Assembly (NCBI RefSeq): GCF_002277955.1
Contig: NZ_CP018477.1
Span: 186,001 to 250,000 of the forward strand
Length of the DNA: 64,000 nt
Source of the DNA: Thermogutta terrifontis
GTDB taxonomy: Bacteria > Planctomycetota > Planctomycetia > Pirellulales > Thermoguttaceae
Direction of reading: 5' to 3'
Shown here: one piece after another, positions 12,897-23,289 of the stretch
Position numbering within the stretch: position 1 is the stretch's first letter
Layout of the letters: each line of letters starts with the position of its first letter
Position numbers and translations under genes: made by a program
The notes under the pieces: generated by a model
Databases searched by the model: none
Seen by the model: the letters and a program-made list of their open reading frames with translations, nothing else
What the model was told of the DNA's origin: nothing

Positions 12897-14363
12897 TTAC
12901 ACGGATGAGTCGTTATTCGAGAGTGTGTCAAGGGAGAAAATAGTCAGTCTTTCCGTAAACGGTTGCGGCTTGCGCGCAGCAGGAGCAAATTTGGAGTCAA
13001 CATACACGAGACGTGCACCTTTTGGTGCTGCCAGGGTCCAGGCAATACTCATAATCTTTTTTCCCGGCGTAACATCGATGACCAACGAGCGTGGATCATC
13101 GCCCTGGAGTAATTCGTCCACGAGGCTGCGAAATCGGGGAACCAGCTCCTCCAGATCTCCATCCGGAAATGCTTCGACGCGAGGTTGGGATGAGCCAAGT
13201 TGTTCTTGAACTTCAGGGGATTTCAGCCATTCTTCAACTTCGGCTGCCAGTTTTGGATAGCTTTCATTTCTTCGATTGCTTTGACTTTCCTGAGTATAAA
13301 GAATCAAAGATTTTCTAGGGCGAAATACAAAGTGCATGAGATAGATCAATTCCGGGCTGTCGCTCACAATTGTGATAAAATAGCGGCACTGTAATTTTTC
13401 CGGCTCTTTGCTGAATTGATTCCGAAGTTCGTTTGCCAAATCTTCTAAAATGCAATCGAGGTAATATTTCCGACGCTCGTGATCGGAGCTAATGTCCAGG
13501 TATGTTGCCGCGCGCTCTTCCGGAGGATCAGATCTACTCGCCGGCACGCGAAGCTGCAATTTGTAGGGGCGGAGTGCCTCGTGGGGACGAGGCGTGGACC
13601 TTTCGAATGTCTTGATTTCTATGGGCCAATTATTTTCGCGGACCCATTGACGGGCTTCCTCGAAGCATGAAGCAGGAACAAAGAATTGTGTTGCATGGAA
13701 TTCGTTGGCCACGGCCAATTTCTCTTTGATCCCTTCCACGCGAGTCACGCCCGCTTGGCGATCCCAGGCGCCAGTGGCCCAAACTTTGTGGTCGGGCTTG
13801 CCTTTGTTTGCGGCCAGTATGAGGGCCCCTGCCAGCGGTGCCCAGGCGGAAGAATAGTCACCCTTGAGGAAAGGGAGGCCAGGATCGAAGAGGTTGTCGC
13901 TGGCCGGATGGAGTTCCCATTGGTCGGATTCCGCAATTGCCCGAGAAGCCTTCAGCTCGCGGACCACCTCGTCGGCAACTTCTTGCAGACCTTCGGGAAG
14001 AATGGGCGGTTTTTCTGAAAGTCCTTCTTGCCACCTGAGAGGCAGGACTATCGAATCGCGCAGCGCGGGATAGCATGTATCTTTTCGAACCGCCACAACC
14101 CAACACGCTCCCGGGCCATCGGGCAAGTAAGGCTTTCGATACTGGGAGATCTCCTCGGTTGGCCACCCGTAGGCCGCTAGTTCCAAACGCGCTTTCTCCA
14201 AGACTTCGGGTTTAAGAAGCCAGCTCGCCAACGGGCCAAGTTCTCTTGCGAGTTTAAGCGCTTCAGGATTAGTGAGCTCTTCCGGACTTTTTTGGGCCAA
14301 CCGTTCGATTCTCTCAGCGACCACTTGCGAGGGACTCATGGTCACGTGCTTTCGACCTGTCAT
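12897..14363 (-). CDS. Lon-like serine protease fused to a CARF-like nucleotide-sensor domain
   Basis: A 488-residue protein in three parts. An N-terminal helical segment occupies about residues 1-80. A Lon-type (S16) proteolytic domain follows at about 85-235. In it, DYSSAWAPLAGALILAA supplies the Ser (S171 or S172), and the strand VWATGAWDRQAGVTRVEGIKEKL supplies the Lys (K213 or K215 in GIKEK); FFVPA is the usual following strand. From about 285 is a Rossmann-like CARF-type domain: RYFITIVSDSPEL is the first strand and VIDVTPGKKIMSIAWTLAA (about 428-446) matches the conserved D-x-T-x-G-x-K ligand loop, ending GARLVYVDSKF. There is no ATPase domain, so this is not a housekeeping Lon. It is the last gene of a four-gene operon, 19 bases after the 365-aa gene. 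By analogy with CalpL (a SAVED-Lon protease), I infer cyclic-oligoadenylate-triggered proteolysis. Domain calls are by eye. Confidence 0.82.
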   Translation of the reverse strand: MTGRKHVTMSPSQVVAERIERLAQKSPEELTNPEALKLARELGPLASWLLKPEVLEKARLELAAYGWPTEEISQYRKPYLPDGPGACWVVAVRKDTCYPALRDSIVLPLRWQEGLSEKPPILPEGLQEVADEVVRELKASRAIAESDQWELHPASDNLFDPGLPFLKGDYSSAWAPLAGALILAANKGKPDHKVWATGAWDRQAGVTRVEGIKEKLAVANEFHATQFFVPASCFEEARQWVRENNWPIEIKTFERSTPRPHEALRPYKLQLRVPASRSDPPEERAATYLDISSDHERRKYYLDCILEDLANELRNQFSKEPEKLQCRYFITIVSDSPELIYLMHFVFRPRKSLILYTQESQSNRRNESYPKLAAEVEEWLKSPEVQEQLGSSQPRVEAFPDGDLEELVPRFRSLVDELLQGDDPRSLVIDVTPGKKIMSIAWTLAAPKGARLVYVDSKFAPAARKPQPFTERLTIFSLDTLSNNDSSV

Positions 14364-14382: not shown

Positions 14383-15480
14383 TCATCGGGTATCCGGCTC
14401 TTCCTCCTCCCAAGGGATGCCGTTGATTTGGAGTGGAACCGTTCCGGGAGAATGAGCCTTTACGAATTCATAGACGTCATCCACCTTGTAAGGCATCTCC
14501 GCGTTCGGGGTGAGTTGACTTTGGACCCCAGCAAATTCGACTGCAGCCCCCGCCAATTCGGTGGCAGGCTGGTTGTCCTGAGTGCGGAAAACCCGCAATT
14601 TCAATTCTTGACCTCGTTTGTGGCAAGAAGGCCACAAAGTCGCCGCGTAGTATTGGCGATCAGGCGACCGCCAACTCAACATGGCCAAGGGTTCGACCAA
14701 GTTGGAAGTTTCCGCGGCGACGCTCAGGACCCGAGTGGCAAGAATGATTTCCGCCGTTCGCCGGGCCGCTTGTTCCCTTGCCGCCGCTGCCCCAGCACGC
14801 CGGGGAGGAAGTCTGGAAAGCCATGCACTCTTTTGTTCAAATCGTTTTTGCAATTCTTCGTCGATCTCCTCCAGCGTGCCATCAAGCCAGTACGGGGCGA
14901 ATGAACGGTAGGGTTCCACAAGCAACTGCCGCCAGTTATTGAGAAGCTCCGTTCCCACGAGCGTGGAAAGGAGTTCCAGAATCTCCCTTTGCTGCATTTG
15001 GCGGTCCACAACTTCTATTTTTTCAGCCAATCCCTGGAGTTTGTCGTGCAAGGTTTCCCATAAAGGATCGGCGTCAATAAAGGCCTCGCAAGCGGCCTCC
15101 CCGAGGGCGGCCATGGCCACCCAGAGGTCCATGCGTTGCTCAAGAAGATCGGCGCAGAGGGCGTCTTCCTCGCCAACGGGGGCATCGTCCCACCGTTGGG
15201 GAAGAGTTTCGACGGCCTCCGCCAGCTCCGCAACCCTGTCTTCTAATGCCTCGATCGCCGCGATGGCCTCAAGTGCGGGTAAAGTCCCGTCATCCTCACC
15301 CGCATCGAGCCCGAACACTCTACAGTATCCCAGGGCCACGGCCACATTGGCGGCCGCTTGTTTCGCCTCGGGACTGGGCGTCCCCGTTTGAAACTCATTT
15401 AAGGCGGGATCAGCCAAGGCTTCCCTTAGCTGATCGACATATCCGTATAAATCTTCCCTTAACGAACGAAAAGTCGTCAT
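14383..15480 (-). CDS. Helical protein of unknown function in the sigma/CARF-Lon operon
   Basis: 365 residues, not recognised. Residues 1-235 are strongly helical and acidic, with many Leu/Ala/Glu stretches (for example LEDRVAELAEAVETL and KIEVVDRQMQQREILELLSTL), suggesting coiled-coil bundles. An Ala/Arg-rich helix follows (RRAGAAAAREQAARRTAEI). The last 110 residues look like a small beta-sandwich (AMLSWRSPDRQYYAATLW, LKLRVFRTQDNQPATELAGAAVEFAG), reminiscent of C-terminal domains next to anti-sigma regions in planctomycetes. There is no membrane helix, so it is cytoplasmic. The start has an AGGA site nine bases upstream. Its position directly before the protease makes it a candidate protease substrate or anti-sigma factor; this is inference from context only. 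Confidence 0.75.
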   Translation of the reverse strand: MTTFRSLREDLYGYVDQLREALADPALNEFQTGTPSPEAKQAAANVAVALGYCRVFGLDAGEDDGTLPALEAIAAIEALEDRVAELAEAVETLPQRWDDAPVGEEDALCADLLEQRMDLWVAMAALGEAACEAFIDADPLWETLHDKLQGLAEKIEVVDRQMQQREILELLSTLVGTELLNNWRQLLVEPYRSFAPYWLDGTLEEIDEELQKRFEQKSAWLSRLPPRRAGAAAAREQAARRTAEIILATRVLSVAAETSNLVEPLAMLSWRSPDRQYYAATLWPSCHKRGQELKLRVFRTQDNQPATELAGAAVEFAGVQSQLTPNAEMPYKVDDVYEFVKAHSPGTVPLQINGIPWEEEEPDTR

Positions 15481-15521: not shown

Positions 15522-16292
15522 CTAATGCAGGCGTACGCTATCAGCATCGGCACTTTCTTCCCACCGTCGCCGGGGTTTCAGCCACCGTGGGCGGGACCTG
15601 GAGTGTCTTGAGCCTTGAGCCTCTTCGGCGGCAGGCCAGGACGGCAATCGACCCCGCCACGGACAGCCCTTCAGTTCCGGTTCAAATCCCCAGTTCTCCG
15701 GCGTGATAAACTGCAAATTTTTTGCCCGCCCGGTAACTTTCCCCTCTGAGTTTCGGAGGACCACGTCTTCTTGAGGCGATGGCATAAACCATTGCGGTGG
15801 TTCACCCTTGAGAGGGACATACCGGCGGATAATCTGTCGGACGGCGGCTTTCCACCGGTGCCTTCTGTTTTTTTCTACGGCTGCCGCATGGAGATAATAA
15901 CAGGTCACCCATCGCAGGGATGGGCCTGTTCCCCTCAGAATAGCAACAGCCCCGCTTGGAAGGACAAGGTGCCAGGTCATCCAACTGGCGGACTTATGCC
16001 GAGAGCGGTAGACCAGAGCTTGCGGCCGACTCAAGGCCTCGCGCGTTTGTTCACGGAGGACGCCCAGCACGCGCGAAACCACGGCCTGACCGTCCGCCGA
16101 TTGAATCTCCAAGTTCTGCTTCAGGTGTGCCACAGTGTCCGACCCGAACTCCTCTTTCCACGGTTCAGTGCGGCTTGTCCAGTGTTTCTGGCAGTGATAC
16201 CACGCTCCCTCTGAGAACACCACATCGAGCCGGCAATGCTGTTGCTGCGGCCGGGGATCGGGCAAGTCCGGCCAACGTTGCAATACGTTCAT
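15522..16292 (-). CDS. Basic protein of unknown function between sigma factor and helical protein
   Basis: 256 residues, not recognised with confidence. The middle (about 85-150) reads REALSRPQALVYRSRHKSASWMTWHLVLPSG followed by strands AVAILRG and LRWVTCYYLHA, then a basic helix RHRWKAAVRQIIRRYVP. This alternation of helix and two to three beta strands with conserved-looking Arg, His and Lys resembles small RelE/barnase-type RNase folds, but I cannot prove it. The C-terminal tail is Arg/Ser/Trp-rich and probably disordered. It follows the sigma gene by 42 bases. In the characterised CalpL system the sigma-binding target is a MazF-like toxin homologue; this protein could occupy that slot (inference). 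Confidence 0.7.
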   Translation of the reverse strand: MNVLQRWPDLPDPRPQQQHCRLDVVFSEGAWYHCQKHWTSRTEPWKEEFGSDTVAHLKQNLEIQSADGQAVVSRVLGVLREQTREALSRPQALVYRSRHKSASWMTWHLVLPSGAVAILRGTGPSLRWVTCYYLHAAAVEKNRRHRWKAAVRQIIRRYVPLKGEPPQWFMPSPQEDVVLRNSEGKVTGRAKNLQFITPENWGFEPELKGCPWRGRLPSWPAAEEAQGSRHSRSRPRWLKPRRRWEESADADSVRLH

Positions 16293-16334: not shown

Positions 16335-17099
16335 TTACGGCGAGCGGAACGAATCGAACCAGCGAAGTGAACGAATCTTGTTTTCCATTCGTTCGTAGTG
16401 CATTCTCACGCTCTGAGAGCTAACGTTGAGGCAATCCGCAAGGAAGTGGATGCGATCGTTCGGTGTCTGGCAATCCTCAATCCCGGGAGGAGGAAAGGGT
16501 TGAGGTAAACCATCGATCTTATTGACCCACGCTTGCCAGGTCTCCTTCGGCACACGGTCCCAGAGGCCTGCGACCGCAAGACCGAAGACCCTTCTTTTGA
16601 CCGGGATTTTTTCAAGCTCCTGTAGATCCTCCTCACCGAAATCGCGATCGAGGTCCATTCGCCACTGTGCCTGCGTCGCGGGGTCTGAGAGGTGATGGTC
16701 CTCGATTGGACATTCAGCCATGCCCTCGTTTGGCCGAGATTCGGCGTCAAAAACCTCAGAAATTGTCCTTTCCCGGCGTCGTCTACGTCCCTTCTTGCGG
16801 TGTTCATCAATCAACCAACGATCCAACACCTGGTAGCACCATGCGCGGAAATTGCCTCGCACTGGGTCGAAGGAGTTGAATCGCGTGTAAACTGCTGTAG
16901 GCGCTTCGTCCGCTAATTCAGAAAGCTCTTGAGGACTCAGTGCATACTTGGCCGCAATATCATACACAAGTTTACGAATAGCGGAGTCCAGTTTTCGCCA
17001 TGCCTCTTCTCTCTCCTCCGGCGTGCCGTCTTTCGCCAGCCGTGCCCATTGATTGATCTCATTCTCTTCGTGAGGGATCCCTTGTTTCCCCGCACTCAT
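16335..17099 (-). CDS. ECF-like RNA polymerase sigma factor (first gene of the CARF-Lon operon)
   Basis: A 254-residue sigma-70-family protein. Region 2 spans about residues 33-108, with the core-binding and -10-recognition stretch FDPVRGNFRAWCYQVLDRWLIDEHRKKGRRRR; region 4 is at about 160-245 with helix-turn-helix LADCLNVSSQSVRMHYERMENKIRSL. No region 1.1 or 3 is seen, as in ECF or ECF-like factors. The frame is open 52 codons further upstream, but the ATG at 17099 has a strong GGGGAG site seven bases away and gives a normal N-terminus. It heads the operon, so it probably transcribes its own cluster or a defence regulon when released. There is no membrane anti-sigma gene beside it, which points to a cytoplasmic control partner. 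Confidence 0.88.
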   Translation of the reverse strand: MSAGKQGIPHEENEINQWARLAKDGTPEEREEAWRKLDSAIRKLVYDIAAKYALSPQELSELADEAPTAVYTRFNSFDPVRGNFRAWCYQVLDRWLIDEHRKKGRRRRRERTISEVFDAESRPNEGMAECPIEDHHLSDPATQAQWRMDLDRDFGEEDLQELEKIPVKRRVFGLAVAGLWDRVPKETWQAWVNKIDGLPQPFPPPGIEDCQTPNDRIHFLADCLNVSSQSVRMHYERMENKIRSLRWFDSFRSP

Positions 17100-17379
17100 T
17101 CGATTTCTCCCCGGGTTTGCGGTGACCATCCAGAAACTCTCACTATTTTGGTCGTCAGCCAGACCTCCGGCAACTGCCGGCAAGTCCACGATCAGAAATG
17201 AGAAAATCCCTTTGGCCCTCGACAAACCAATGTGATAAAATGCATTCGCAAGCAAAGAGAAGACGAGCGGAGCAAGCCATTCCAGGTGGACAAAGCGTTT
17301 CCGTCAGGGAAGTCTGTGCCGCTGGGTGAGAAAGGTAGATCATTGCTCAGCAGTGGCAGGTTTTGGAGCAATATCAACC

Positions 17380-18103: not shown

Positions 18104-18475
18104 GGGCACGACAAGCGTGCCCCTCTGCAAAAACCTCGGAGGGACGTGCTTCGGAGGGACCTGCTTGTCAGGTCCGTGTGTTGGAAGTCGGGAGGGATCT
18201 GCTTCTCCACACAGAACGGGTACTCACAGCGTTCACCGGTAGGGGCAATTCATGAATTGCCCCTACCAGTGAATGCTTATCGTGTTCGCGAAGTGGGAAA
18301 CGTCATTCGGGCGGTCCTGCTTGTGAGGTCCGCTTCCCAAGTTTGGATCATCCGTTTCACCAGGCAAGCCCCAACGGGTCAGTTCAGTTGCCGGTTAAAT
18401 GATGGCGGCAATTCATGAATTGCCCCTACGACACCGTGGAGCCGCGGCATCTCACAGGTTTTCGCGAAAGTGGGG
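18104..18475. repeat. REP-like repeat tract 2
   Basis: ACAAG-loop hairpins lie at 18104-18122 (stem GGGCACG/CGTGCCC) and 18157-18175 (stem GGACCTG/CAGGTCC, on the other strand). A perfect 28-bp GTAGGGGC palindrome lies at 18239-18266. A second palindrome copy at about 18404-18428 is in the opposite orientation and carries its conserved arm to its right (to 18475, ending AAAGTGGGG), so the element here is inverted relative to tract 1. The tract lies upstream of tRNA-Val. Confidence 0.88.
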
Positions 18476-20220: not shown

Positions 20221-21642
20221 TCAGAAGTAGAGGTCCCTTTGATCTGTTTCCTGGATCAGACGCAGCCGTTCAATGAGGGCGTTTTTTCGCGGACCGTCGG
20301 GAAGCTTTGCCAGTTCGCTTTCGATGAGTTTCATGCCGGCTGCACGCGTCTCCGGGCTGGCATAGTCCACAAGATATTCCATCAACGTGGTGAGCGCATT
20401 CGGTGTACAGAAGCGCTGGATGAAGCCCGGAATGGCAAACTCCATGAAATGTTCCCCCGTTCGCCCCAGTCGATAGCAGGCCGTGCAAAAACTGGGGATA
20501 TAGCCATCCACCAGCAGTTGGCGGATCACTTCATCCAGCGGACGGAGATCGCCCAATTCGAATTGCTCACGCTCCAGCACCTGGGCGTCACCTGCCTCAG
20601 TATAGCCGCCAACTTCGATGCGGCTTCCCGCGTCGATCTGGGAGACACCGAATTCCATAACCTCCTGCCGCAGCCAGGCCGGTTCCCTCGCCGTGAGAAT
20701 CAAGCCCGTGTAGGGCACCGCCAATCGCAGGACGGCGATGAGACGTTTGAAGTCTTCGTCGGAGACCCGATAGGTTTCATCGAGCTTGACACCCGCCGCG
20801 GGACGTAAACGGGGGAAACTGATCGTGTGTGGCCCGACATTATAGTGCTTCTGGAGGTGCCAGGCATGGCTCACCAGGCCGAGGACCTCGAACCGCCAGT
20901 CATACAGTCCGAACAGCGCCCCGATCCCCACGTCGTCGCAACCGGCTTCCATCGCCCGGCTGAGCGCATCGAGTCGCCAGAGATAATCTCCCTTGCGGGT
21001 GTTGCGGGGATGGACCTTGGCGTAGGTCTCGTGATGATACGTTTCCTGGAAGATTTGATACGTCCCGATCCCCGCGGCTTTGATTTCCGCGAATCCTTCA
21101 TGATCCATGGGAGCGGCATTGATATTGACGCGGCGGATGTTGGCCTTTGGCCGTCGCACCGCGTACACCCTCCGCACACATTCGGCGATGAATGTGGGGG
21201 AGTAGGTGGGGTGCTCGCCGAAGACGAGAATCAGCCGTTTATGGCCGCGATCAAGCAGCTGCTGGACCTGCGCCTCAATGTCCTCTGGCGTGAGGGTGCG
21301 GCGCACAACTTCCCGGTTGGAGCGGCGGAATGCGCAATACAGGCAGTCATTCGTGCACTCGCTGCCGATGTACAGCGGGGCGAACAAAACAATGCGGTTG
21401 CCGTAAACATCGCGCTTGAGTTGCCGAGCCGCCTGGAAAACCTCTTCCCAAAGCTCCGGCGATGAAATACCAAGCAGTACGGCGGTTTCCTCCACCGTGA
21501 GCGGTTCCTTGGCCAGGCTCTTCGCGATGACCTCGCGGACCTCGCCGGGGTCGCTTCTTCGCTCCAGCAAGCTCAAAAGGTAAGGTTCGTTGATGAAGTC
21601 GTACGCGCTGGTGCTCAAGCGCCGATTGGCGGTGGTGGTCAT
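20221..21642 (-). CDS. hydG: [FeFe]-hydrogenase maturase HydG
   Basis: 473 residues. HydG cleaves tyrosine to make the CO and cyanide ligands of the hydrogenase H-cluster. The radical-SAM cluster motif is C96-x3-C100-x2-C103 (CTNDCLYC). The C-terminal cluster motif that separates HydG from ThiH is complete: C386-x2-C389-x22-C412 (CTACYRLGRTGEHFMEF...C). The start at 21642 has a GAGGAG site; the longer frame would run into hydE. hydE ends four bases upstream, so the two are cotranscribed. No hydF or hydrogenase large subunit lies nearby. Confidence 0.95.
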   Translation of the reverse strand: MTTTANRRLSTSAYDFINEPYLLSLLERRSDPGEVREVIAKSLAKEPLTVEETAVLLGISSPELWEEVFQAARQLKRDVYGNRIVLFAPLYIGSECTNDCLYCAFRRSNREVVRRTLTPEDIEAQVQQLLDRGHKRLILVFGEHPTYSPTFIAECVRRVYAVRRPKANIRRVNINAAPMDHEGFAEIKAAGIGTYQIFQETYHHETYAKVHPRNTRKGDYLWRLDALSRAMEAGCDDVGIGALFGLYDWRFEVLGLVSHAWHLQKHYNVGPHTISFPRLRPAAGVKLDETYRVSDEDFKRLIAVLRLAVPYTGLILTAREPAWLRQEVMEFGVSQIDAGSRIEVGGYTEAGDAQVLEREQFELGDLRPLDEVIRQLLVDGYIPSFCTACYRLGRTGEHFMEFAIPGFIQRFCTPNALTTLMEYLVDYASPETRAAGMKLIESELAKLPDGPRKNALIERLRLIQETDQRDLYF

Positions 21643-21646
21643 GGTT

Positions 21647-22837
21647 TCACTCCTCGCGATGTTGGCCTTCTTCCGCACCGTGGAATGAACGCCCGGATGC
21701 TGGCCGGTCGTTGATGACGGACGGTGCAACCGCTTGGTCCGCGGAAGGCGTTTCAACCTGCATGCCGGTTCGCCATCGATAATTCGGGGATGCGCCGGGG
21801 CCCTGACCCACGTGACGGCCGATTGACTCAATCCGCGCTCGCAGACACGTATGGCAGGCTTCGGCGGTCTCCTGAATGCAGGCCTTGTTGGGATAAATTT
21901 CGTAATGGATGCGGTAGTGCGGCGGCGTTAAATTGGGCATGACAACATTCGCCCCACGAACCAGCCCCAGCTCCCGACCGTTCTTCCGATTGAGTGTGGC
22001 CAGGGCCGTGGTGCTGGGGATGTTCGCCCGAGGACACAAGATTCGAGACAGCGCGATGACCTTGTAGGTCATCAATTCGCTGGCGGGGACCTGCTCTTCC
22101 GCGGGAACAACTCGGCAGAATGCCGGATCGGCAAGGGGCGTTCTGGGATGGGCGATGTACGGCCCGACGCCGATCATATCCAAATCGAGCTCGCGGAAGA
22201 GCAGAAGATCATCAGCCAGATCGCCGTAGGTTTGGCCCGGCAGTCCAATCATCACGCCGCTACCCACTTCATAACCCATCTCCCTAAGCCGCCGTAACAG
22301 TGCGATGCGATCGCTGGTTTTCCCCGGTCGCGGGGGATGATAGCGGGCGTACAACTCGGGCTGCGAAGTCTCAAAGCGGAGGAGATAGCGATCTGCCCCG
22401 GCCTGCCGCCACGTCCAAAGCTCGTCCTCCTCGCGTTCGCCAAGACTCAACGTGATTGCCAGTCCAAGCTCCTGTTTGATGGCCTGAATCACTTCGGTGA
22501 TGAATTGTGTGGTTAGTCCGGGGTCTTCGCCCGATTGCAGCACGACGGTGCCGTAGCCAAGAGCCGCCGCTTTCCGGGCACAGGCGAGGATTTCGTCGAA
22601 GGACATCCGGTAACGCACCAGTTCCGTGTTGGGCGCCCGCAGGCCACAGTAGGCGCACAGCCGCACGCAATAATTGGAAATCTCGATCAGTCCGCGGAGG
22701 TGGACCTCGCCCCCAACATGAATCTGGCGGAGGTGGTCGGCCCATTGCCAGAGCTGGGCGAGCCGGGCAGGATTCTCCTCCCGAAGCCATCCAATCAATT
22801 GTTCGCGATTAAGTGATGTTTCGATTGAAAGCGGCAT
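21647..22837 (-). CDS. hydE: [FeFe]-hydrogenase maturase HydE
   Basis: 396 residues, a radical-SAM maturase acting in synthesis of the diiron subcluster of [FeFe]-hydrogenase. The motif C57-x3-C61-x2-C64 (CVRLCAYC) sits in EISNYCVRLCAYCGLRAPN, typical of HydE. GEDPGLTTQFITEVI, RFETSQPELYARYHP and GSGVMIGLPGQTYGDL are conserved family stretches. The ATG at 22837 begins MPLSIETSLNREQLI, a normal HydE N-terminus; its ribosome-binding site is weak. The last 50 residues after GRHVGQG are low-complexity and extend past the usual end. It is the first gene of a two-gene hydEG unit. Confidence 0.94.
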   Translation of the reverse strand: MPLSIETSLNREQLIGWLREENPARLAQLWQWADHLRQIHVGGEVHLRGLIEISNYCVRLCAYCGLRAPNTELVRYRMSFDEILACARKAAALGYGTVVLQSGEDPGLTTQFITEVIQAIKQELGLAITLSLGEREEDELWTWRQAGADRYLLRFETSQPELYARYHPPRPGKTSDRIALLRRLREMGYEVGSGVMIGLPGQTYGDLADDLLLFRELDLDMIGVGPYIAHPRTPLADPAFCRVVPAEEQVPASELMTYKVIALSRILCPRANIPSTTALATLNRKNGRELGLVRGANVVMPNLTPPHYRIHYEIYPNKACIQETAEACHTCLRARIESIGRHVGQGPGASPNYRWRTGMQVETPSADQAVAPSVINDRPASGRSFHGAEEGQHREE

Positions 22838-23289
22838 CGTGCAAGACCATTCGCGGAAACATATCCAATCGGTCCATTTCTGCTGCTCAGGGCCAGGGCG
22901 CCGATCGGACGTCAAACAATTATACGGCAAAACCGAGCGTTCTGTGCGGCAGCGGTCGCTGGAGGTCCGCGGGCCATCCACGTGCCGGGCTAGGCCCACC
23001 CATCATGGAGGTTGCCGCCACGCACAGTCCCGAATTTCCCACCGGCATCCAATCATCAGTGATAAGCTAGTGTTTTTTGATTGGATCCTTCACAGCGACG
23101 AGGTCTCTCCCCGCCAGCCGGTTGGGTTGTCCGCCGGGCTTTTCCGAAAAGTAGGTTTGATGTGTGAAGTGTTTTTCGATGGTAAGGTACTCATTCCTGG
23201 CGCCCCGCGAAGTCATAATGAAGGTAAACGGCCCGAGGATTGGCTTGCCAACGTCCCTCAAATCTCCGCGATCAGGCTGTGGAACGTTT
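22838..23289. other. Divergent intergenic region between hydE and the S41 protease
   Basis: About 450 bases that should contain promoters for both genes. Open frames on both strands here are extensions or antisense shadows of the flanking genes. No repeat-family element, RNA gene or convincing promoter pair was recognised. Confidence 0.4.

Follow-up and report, generated by a model that had tools for sequence, protein, structure and literature searches.

A predicted RelE/barnase-class RNase-like protein in a sigma factor/CARF-Lon cassette tied to type III CRISPR in Thermogutta terrifontis

A basic 256-aa protein of Thermogutta terrifontis, here called slot2, is a candidate RNase-like protein of the BECR (RelE/barnase-class) fold, an assignment supported, though not proven, at modest structural confidence. 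Its gene lies in an operon with genes for a sigma factor, a second protein (slot3) and a protease that carries a CARF sensor (CARF-Lon; Table 1), and relatives of this cassette recur in genomes that also encode type III CRISPR systems. Taken as a whole, the best explanation, to which we give a little less than an even chance, is that slot2 would be the BECR RNase-like member of a sigma/slot2/slot3/CARF-Lon output module of type III CRISPR. Coordinates refer to the window, that is, the whole 64,000-nucleotide stretch analysed (contig NZ_CP018477.1, positions 186,001 to 250,000).

Table 1. Cassette features in the window, with the evidence for each where available.
Feature	Coordinates	Strand	Basis
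Sigma-70 family (ECF-like) sigma factor	16335..17255	-	Pfam Sigma70_r2 E 9e-9
slot2, 256-aa basic protein, predicted BECR-fold RNase-like domain and basic C-terminal tail	15522..16292	-	
Predicted BECR-like core of slot2, residues 20-138 (helices, then four-stranded meander)	15879..16235	-	predicted models
slot3, 365-aa protein	14383..15480	-	family of 32 ORFs
CARF-Lon protease, N-terminal Lon-type protease domain and C-terminal CARF sensor	12897..14363	-	PADLOC PDLC01981
Span from Ser172 (13848-13850) to Lys215 (13719-13721) of CARF-Lon	13719..13850	-	Lon dyad conservation

The slot2 reading frame exists where the original prediction had placed it (no strand was given there), starts with ATG and contains the peptides that were quoted from it. 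It does lie directly behind the sigma factor gene, with 42 nt between the sigma stop codon and the slot2 start and a GAGGACAAGGG stretch immediately 5' of that start, and its product is indeed basic (pI 10.2; 41 Lys and Arg, 10 His, 26 Asp and Glu). Downstream, slot3 starts 41 nt after slot2 and CARF-Lon 19 nt past slot3; upstream, the sigma factor itself likely starts at 17129 or 17099, rather than at the TTG at 17255. A search of the organism's single 4.81 Mb contig found one copy of slot2, and its nearest relative (55% identity) comes from another Thermogutta assembly in which the gene order is identical. At the family level, the window-type slot2 (slot2A) was found in 10 out of 101 genomes, with that of the window counted in, and none of these 10 held a solitary slot2A. 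Conservation rules out a chance reading frame, and we also rejected a stand-alone type II toxin-antitoxin pair, given the length of the protein (256 aa) and its occurrence with the sigma factor and slot3.

Scattered across positions 1199-60162 of the window (e.g. 18233-18268) are about 10 copies of a palindromic interspersed repeat of the TAGGGGCAATTCATGAATTGCCCCTA type and 16 of a second such repeat, of the CGGACCnGACAAGCnGGTCCCTCCG type. Two adjoining minus-strand reading frames at 20221-22999 look by eye like hydrogenase maturases of the radical-SAM HydG/HydE type.

Slot2 has no significant match in Pfam, NCBIfam, PHROGs or PDB profiles, and no RelE/ParE-type Pfam family was listed at E 1 for 12 members of slot2A and 12 of a second type, slot2B. 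Profiles of Ntox35 and PBECR2 matched nothing in any genome scanned, control genomes included, and that of PBECR4 matched in just one genome, a control. An hhalign comparison relates slot2A to slot2B (probability 73%, E 3e-5) along some 107 columns, among them those of the His region and of the final strand discussed below, and by the same method neither resembles slot3. A MazF-like partner was considered and dropped, as profile searches gave no sign of one: for slot2A, slot2B and slot3 alike there was neither a MazF family in Pfam nor a MazF/CalpT entry among PDB profiles, results that still leave room for a distant relation.

The fold was modelled with AlphaFold2 from an alignment of two sequences (the window protein and that of locus L002), with a mean pLDDT of 42.8 at full length and 51.0 over a core of residues 20-161. 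Both models consist of helices and then four strands, in agreement with the helix followed by Arg/His-rich strands that had been proposed from the letters. At these pLDDT values, their topology is that of the barnase/EndoU/colicin/RelE (BECR) fold, defined in the available text of PMC3482391 by an N-terminal helical segment and a four-stranded meander, often with Ser or Thr in strand 4. Against the PDB, Foldseek placed toxin entries in all of its rows 1-21 for the core model (YoeB, YafQ, HigB, ParE2, CDI-toxin complexes, HP0892 and one pneumococcal toxin-antitoxin complex, the last identified by title only), and row 22 was unrelated. Among these, HP0892 is presumably RelE-like. The best match had a probability of 0.84 and E 0.055, and none reached E 0.001; the full-length model returned the same toxin matches. 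By VIA-align, the core was closest to the CDI toxin 6cp9_C (Z 6.6, rmsd 2.9, 91 residues) and weakly matched the CRISPR effector Cami1 (8phj_X; Z 4.2, rmsd 4.3, 85 residues), values that fall under the tool's warnings about low-confidence models and about a Z under 8, which may mean just a common arrangement. Barnase, EndoU and MazF were unlisted by VIA-align, which is no ground for excluding them. A library of viral structures held no meaningful match to the slot2 model.

A mean pLDDT of about 51, Foldseek E values that are all above 0.05, VIA Z scores under 8 and a protein without a significant sequence family could also mean that slot2 has no nuclease fold, and that a low-confidence model landed by chance in a common alpha-plus-meander arrangement. 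We consider this improbable, since the top 21 Foldseek rows belong to one superfamily, the full-length and core models agree, and the conserved His and Thr columns fit the published BECR pattern.

These columns form a putative active site. In the model, H33 and H37 (H33-x3-H37) lie in the first helix of slot2, and T130 and Y132 in strand 4. Among 18 slot2A sequences, a set that leaves out L094 (broken) and L095 (a duplicate), H37 and T130 are each conserved in 16, and H33 in 14. L056 and L063 both lack H37 and also T130, the rest being kept; random placement would put the two losses in the same two sequences with a chance of 1 in 153. On the best tree this co-loss took place in two separate events, although the starred branches require just one. 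All 12 slot2B sequences have the His pair, and the matching strand residue is Thr in 10 and Ser in 2 (12/12 Thr or Ser). For the Ntox35 clade, the available text of PMC3482391 gives a pattern of 'H, KH', two N-terminal His, plus a Ser or Thr in strand 4.

The BECR reading of slot2 thus draws on three lines together, namely the predicted topology, the toxin entries in Foldseek rows 1-21, and the conserved His pair and strand-4 Thr. An RNase-type fold had been suggested from the sequence alone, with structure prediction, Foldseek and the conserved residues of homologues named as the means of checking it, and at modest confidence that suggestion holds: the model has helices and a four-strand meander, RelE/ParE-type and CDI toxins come out on top with no match significant by itself, and the residues match the published BECR pattern. 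As the window protein has the full His/Thr set, it is predicted to be RNase-active. On the other hand, the two slot2A members without H37 and T130 suggest that the putative catalysis may be dispensable. Nor does a BECR fold by itself imply a nuclease: ParE has the fold without the RNase residues (as described in the available text of PMC11980606), ParE2 chains are among the Foldseek matches, and the basic C-terminal tail of slot2 could bind nucleic acid, all of which would suit a ParE-like non-RNase binder (e.g. of RNA polymerase, ribosome or gyrase) or an RNA-binding adaptor. We hold this to be quite unlikely, as the conservation of the His pair and of the strand-4 Thr, together with their joint loss in two members, suits an enzyme better.

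The protease of the cassette clearly belongs to the CARF-Lon effectors. Its residues 15-477 match the PADLOC model PDLC01981 (CARF_m2--CARF_LON) at E 3.9e-152, and more CARF models match the C-terminal part, so that CARF and Lon stand in one chain; among the 25 models listed of the 29 matching PADLOC models none was a SAVED model, the best being CARF_m2 CARF_LON. The Ser-Lys dyad is intact: all 38 sequences that extend to Ser172 keep it, and Lys215 is kept in 39/39. Their distance of 43 residues is, we take it, the Lon dyad spacing. Neither a plasmid search with CARF-Lon nor scans of viral contigs gave a match. Slot3 likely has a mostly helical N-terminal part and a beta-rich C-terminal part (alignment A6, 24 of the 32 slot3 ORFs), and it found no significant or convincing match in Pfam or PDB profiles.

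Of 347 genomes of the class searched with a CARF-Lon profile made from six proteins (that of the window and five relatives), 38 had a match with an E of at most 0.001, and in 26 of the 38 it scored at least 100 bits. Cas10 (TIGR02577) occurs in 50 of the 347 genomes; it is present in 24 of the 26 CARF-Lon genomes at the level of at least 100 bits, as opposed to 26 of the 321 others (hypergeometric 5e-21, uncorrected for relatedness). Eight CARF-Lon loci lie on the same contig as a Cas10 match and no more than 10 kb from it, and a type III locus with a GGDD-bearing Cas10 is present in the genome of the window, though its distance from the cassette, about 59 kb, counts against the link. On the whole, these data support a tie between the CARF-Lon/sigma unit and type III CRISPR, and with it the expectation of the original prediction that the family is broader than described, as the unit is not of the Lon-SAVED kind known from Calp-like systems.

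Several further features were noted. Downstream of the organism's own type III genes lies a 485-aa CARF-like protein (L100:16877 to L101:334, G000:C1:266877-268334, by eye), possibly a second cyclic-oligoadenylate effector. At L066:10606-11494 a CRISPR-like repeat array, whose translation repeats FGHGGEPWVT, adjoins CARF-Lon and cmr-like genes. Proteins that by eye are Cas6-like stand beside CARF-Lon at L047:2341-3306, L011:1456-2622 and L050:2546-3427, those of L047 and L011 with a cysteine-rich motif of the CPHQxxCxY type.

The flanks of the CARF-Lon loci were searched with iterated profiles, which found slot2A at 12 loci, slot2B at 12 loci, slot3 in 32 ORFs and the sigma factor in 32 ORFs. 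The genes normally follow one another as sigma, slot2, slot3, CARF-Lon, with sigma homologues upstream of slot2/slot3 at other loci as in the window; slot2 precedes sigma in L058, L062 and L068, and sigma and slot3 come after CARF-Lon in L071. Among the 38 CARF-Lon loci whose upstream sequence extends for 2.6 kb or more, a count by hand puts the sigma factor in 34 (33 by profile, L060 by eye), slot3 in 33 and slot2 in 27, the last including L094, whose slot2 is broken by stop codons. Left out of this count were L002, L047, L057, L067 and L075 (contig edges) and L095, a duplicate of L002 (a 3620-base contig in both, with the same four matches); L091, L092 and L093 had no CARF-Lon match in the piece examined, and L091 and L092 end at a contig edge. 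Slot3, on which the original prediction is silent, accompanies sigma in 33 of the 34 sigma-bearing loci. Slot2 is missing from seven of them (L045, L050, L060, L066, L071, L072 and L074), and in L066 slot3 is missing along with it.

As a point against the proposed module, four loci (L051, L055, L059 and L069) have no sigma, slot2 or slot3 near CARF-Lon on the same strand. In L051 (7953-9344), L055 (8819-10228) and L059 (3168-4517) CARF-Lon stands alone amid housekeeping-type genes, and these solitary genes may have partners elsewhere or other substrates. Conversely, a sigma-slot2-slot3 set at L093:4967-8110 has no adjoining CARF-Lon, and a lone CARF-Lon is found elsewhere in the same genome (L055).

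Trees of the three partners were compared for the type of slot2 (A or B) found with each. The slot3 tree calls for a single change of label, that of sigma for two and that of CARF-Lon for six; all three are quick trees and have long branches, and the one of CARF-Lon may be poorly resolved. On the slot3 tree, 19 A-labelled rows (the broken L094 included) fall on one side and 12 B-labelled rows on the other, and the rows without slot2 are scattered (6 changes for 6 rows). The tree with the fewest changes being that of slot3, slot2 appears to travel with slot3. Together with the scatter of the slot2-less rows, the label changes give sigma, slot2 and slot3 the look of a single module, from which slot2 would have been lost repeatedly, with the protease swapping between modules.

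The design resembles that of Calp (CalpL/T/S), in which, according to the available text of three accounts, cyclic tetra-adenylate activates the Lon-SAVED protease CalpL to cut the anti-sigma factor CalpT, and a MazF-like 23-kDa part of CalpT remains on the sigma factor after cleavage (PMC11417357, PMC12751052, PMC9704534). Both systems have a fusion of a Lon protease to an oligoadenylate sensor, a sigma factor, a protein predicted or known to have a toxin fold, and a tie to type III CRISPR; the sigma factor, a mark of Calp, is found in 34/38 of our loci. They differ in the sensor (SAVED in Calp, CARF here), in the toxin-fold partner (MazF-like in Calp, predicted RelE/barnase-class here), and in that the cassette has a fourth, more constant protein, slot3, and an optional slot2. 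We read the cassette as best described as a CARF-sensing counterpart of Calp, a variation of a known design and no new category. No report of it was found in the open literature searched, which omits most subscription papers.

By analogy with CalpT, slot2 itself could bind and silence the sigma factor and be cut by CARF-Lon to release it, its catalysis lost or secondary. Slot2 does adjoin sigma in most loci, its type changes just twice on the sigma tree, two slot2A members lack H37 and T130, and in Calp it is the MazF-like part that stays sigma-bound. Yet of the 34 loci with sigma, seven have no slot2 and one more has a broken copy, whereas 33 have slot3, and the putative active site is conserved in most slot2 members, so that we regard this reading as rather unlikely. 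The same figures dispose of slot2 as an indispensable anti-sigma factor. That slot2 is a sigma-bound protease target, as first supposed, is thus a point on which the evidence, including the way slot2 tracks slot3, points elsewhere.

Since slot3, unlike slot2, almost matches sigma in constancy, we propose instead that slot3 acts as anti-sigma factor and protease substrate, and that slot2 is an RNase held by slot3. On constancy alone slot3 would be the likelier of the two for the former role, and slot2 is best read as an optional RNase arm. In the resting cell, slot3 would keep sigma inactive and hold the BECR protein. Upon infection, the genome's type III complex would produce cyclic oligoadenylate, the CARF domain of CARF-Lon would bind it, and the Lon domain would then cleave slot3, leaving sigma free to redirect transcription and the RNase-like slot2 free to cut RNA. 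In its full form, with slot3 as both anti-sigma factor and antitoxin, both partners freed by its cleavage and the set exchanged between proteases, such a dual-output switch is possible but doubtful. More generally, the four-gene unit raises the prospect of a single antiviral alarm that could turn on gene expression as well as RNA cutting.

Other known systems share single parts of the cassette. For CARF-Lon effectors, a term that a single paper in the open literature searched was found to use, the available text of PMC9704534 speculates that they kill by cleavage of essential or of many host proteins, and the CARF-Lon account in that text makes no mention of sigma factors. The presence of a dedicated sigma/slot3/slot2 set at most CARF-Lon loci speaks for a regulatory switch, as opposed to killing by proteolysis. 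With Cami1, a CARF-RelE effector, slot2 would share the use of a BECR/RelE-class domain as an output of type III CRISPR (the structural match being weak, Z 4.2), but that domain is fused to CARF in Cami1, whereas in the cassette it would be a separate protein beside a CARF protease. With the BECR toxins (the RelE/ParE superfamily and Ntox35-like polymorphic toxins) slot2 shares the helices and four-stranded meander of its model and the His pair/strand-4 Ser or Thr pattern. In contrast to them, it has no significant sequence match, a long basic C-terminal extension, and neither a classical antitoxin gene nor a secretion context.

CRISPR signalling via a sigma factor is known from Calp. A CARF-based counterpart, if true, would mean that the design of sensor protease, sigma factor and toxin-fold protein has been assembled from different parts, here with a protein of the RelE/barnase class and a constant partner that is new, and has spread through one bacterial class. 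CARF-Lon would gain concrete candidate substrates, where the literature searched offers only speculation. It would also become testable why toxin folds adjoin sigma factors in such switches, whether as binding relics or as live RNases. If the dual-output switch holds as well, the same alarm would both rewrite transcription and degrade RNA.
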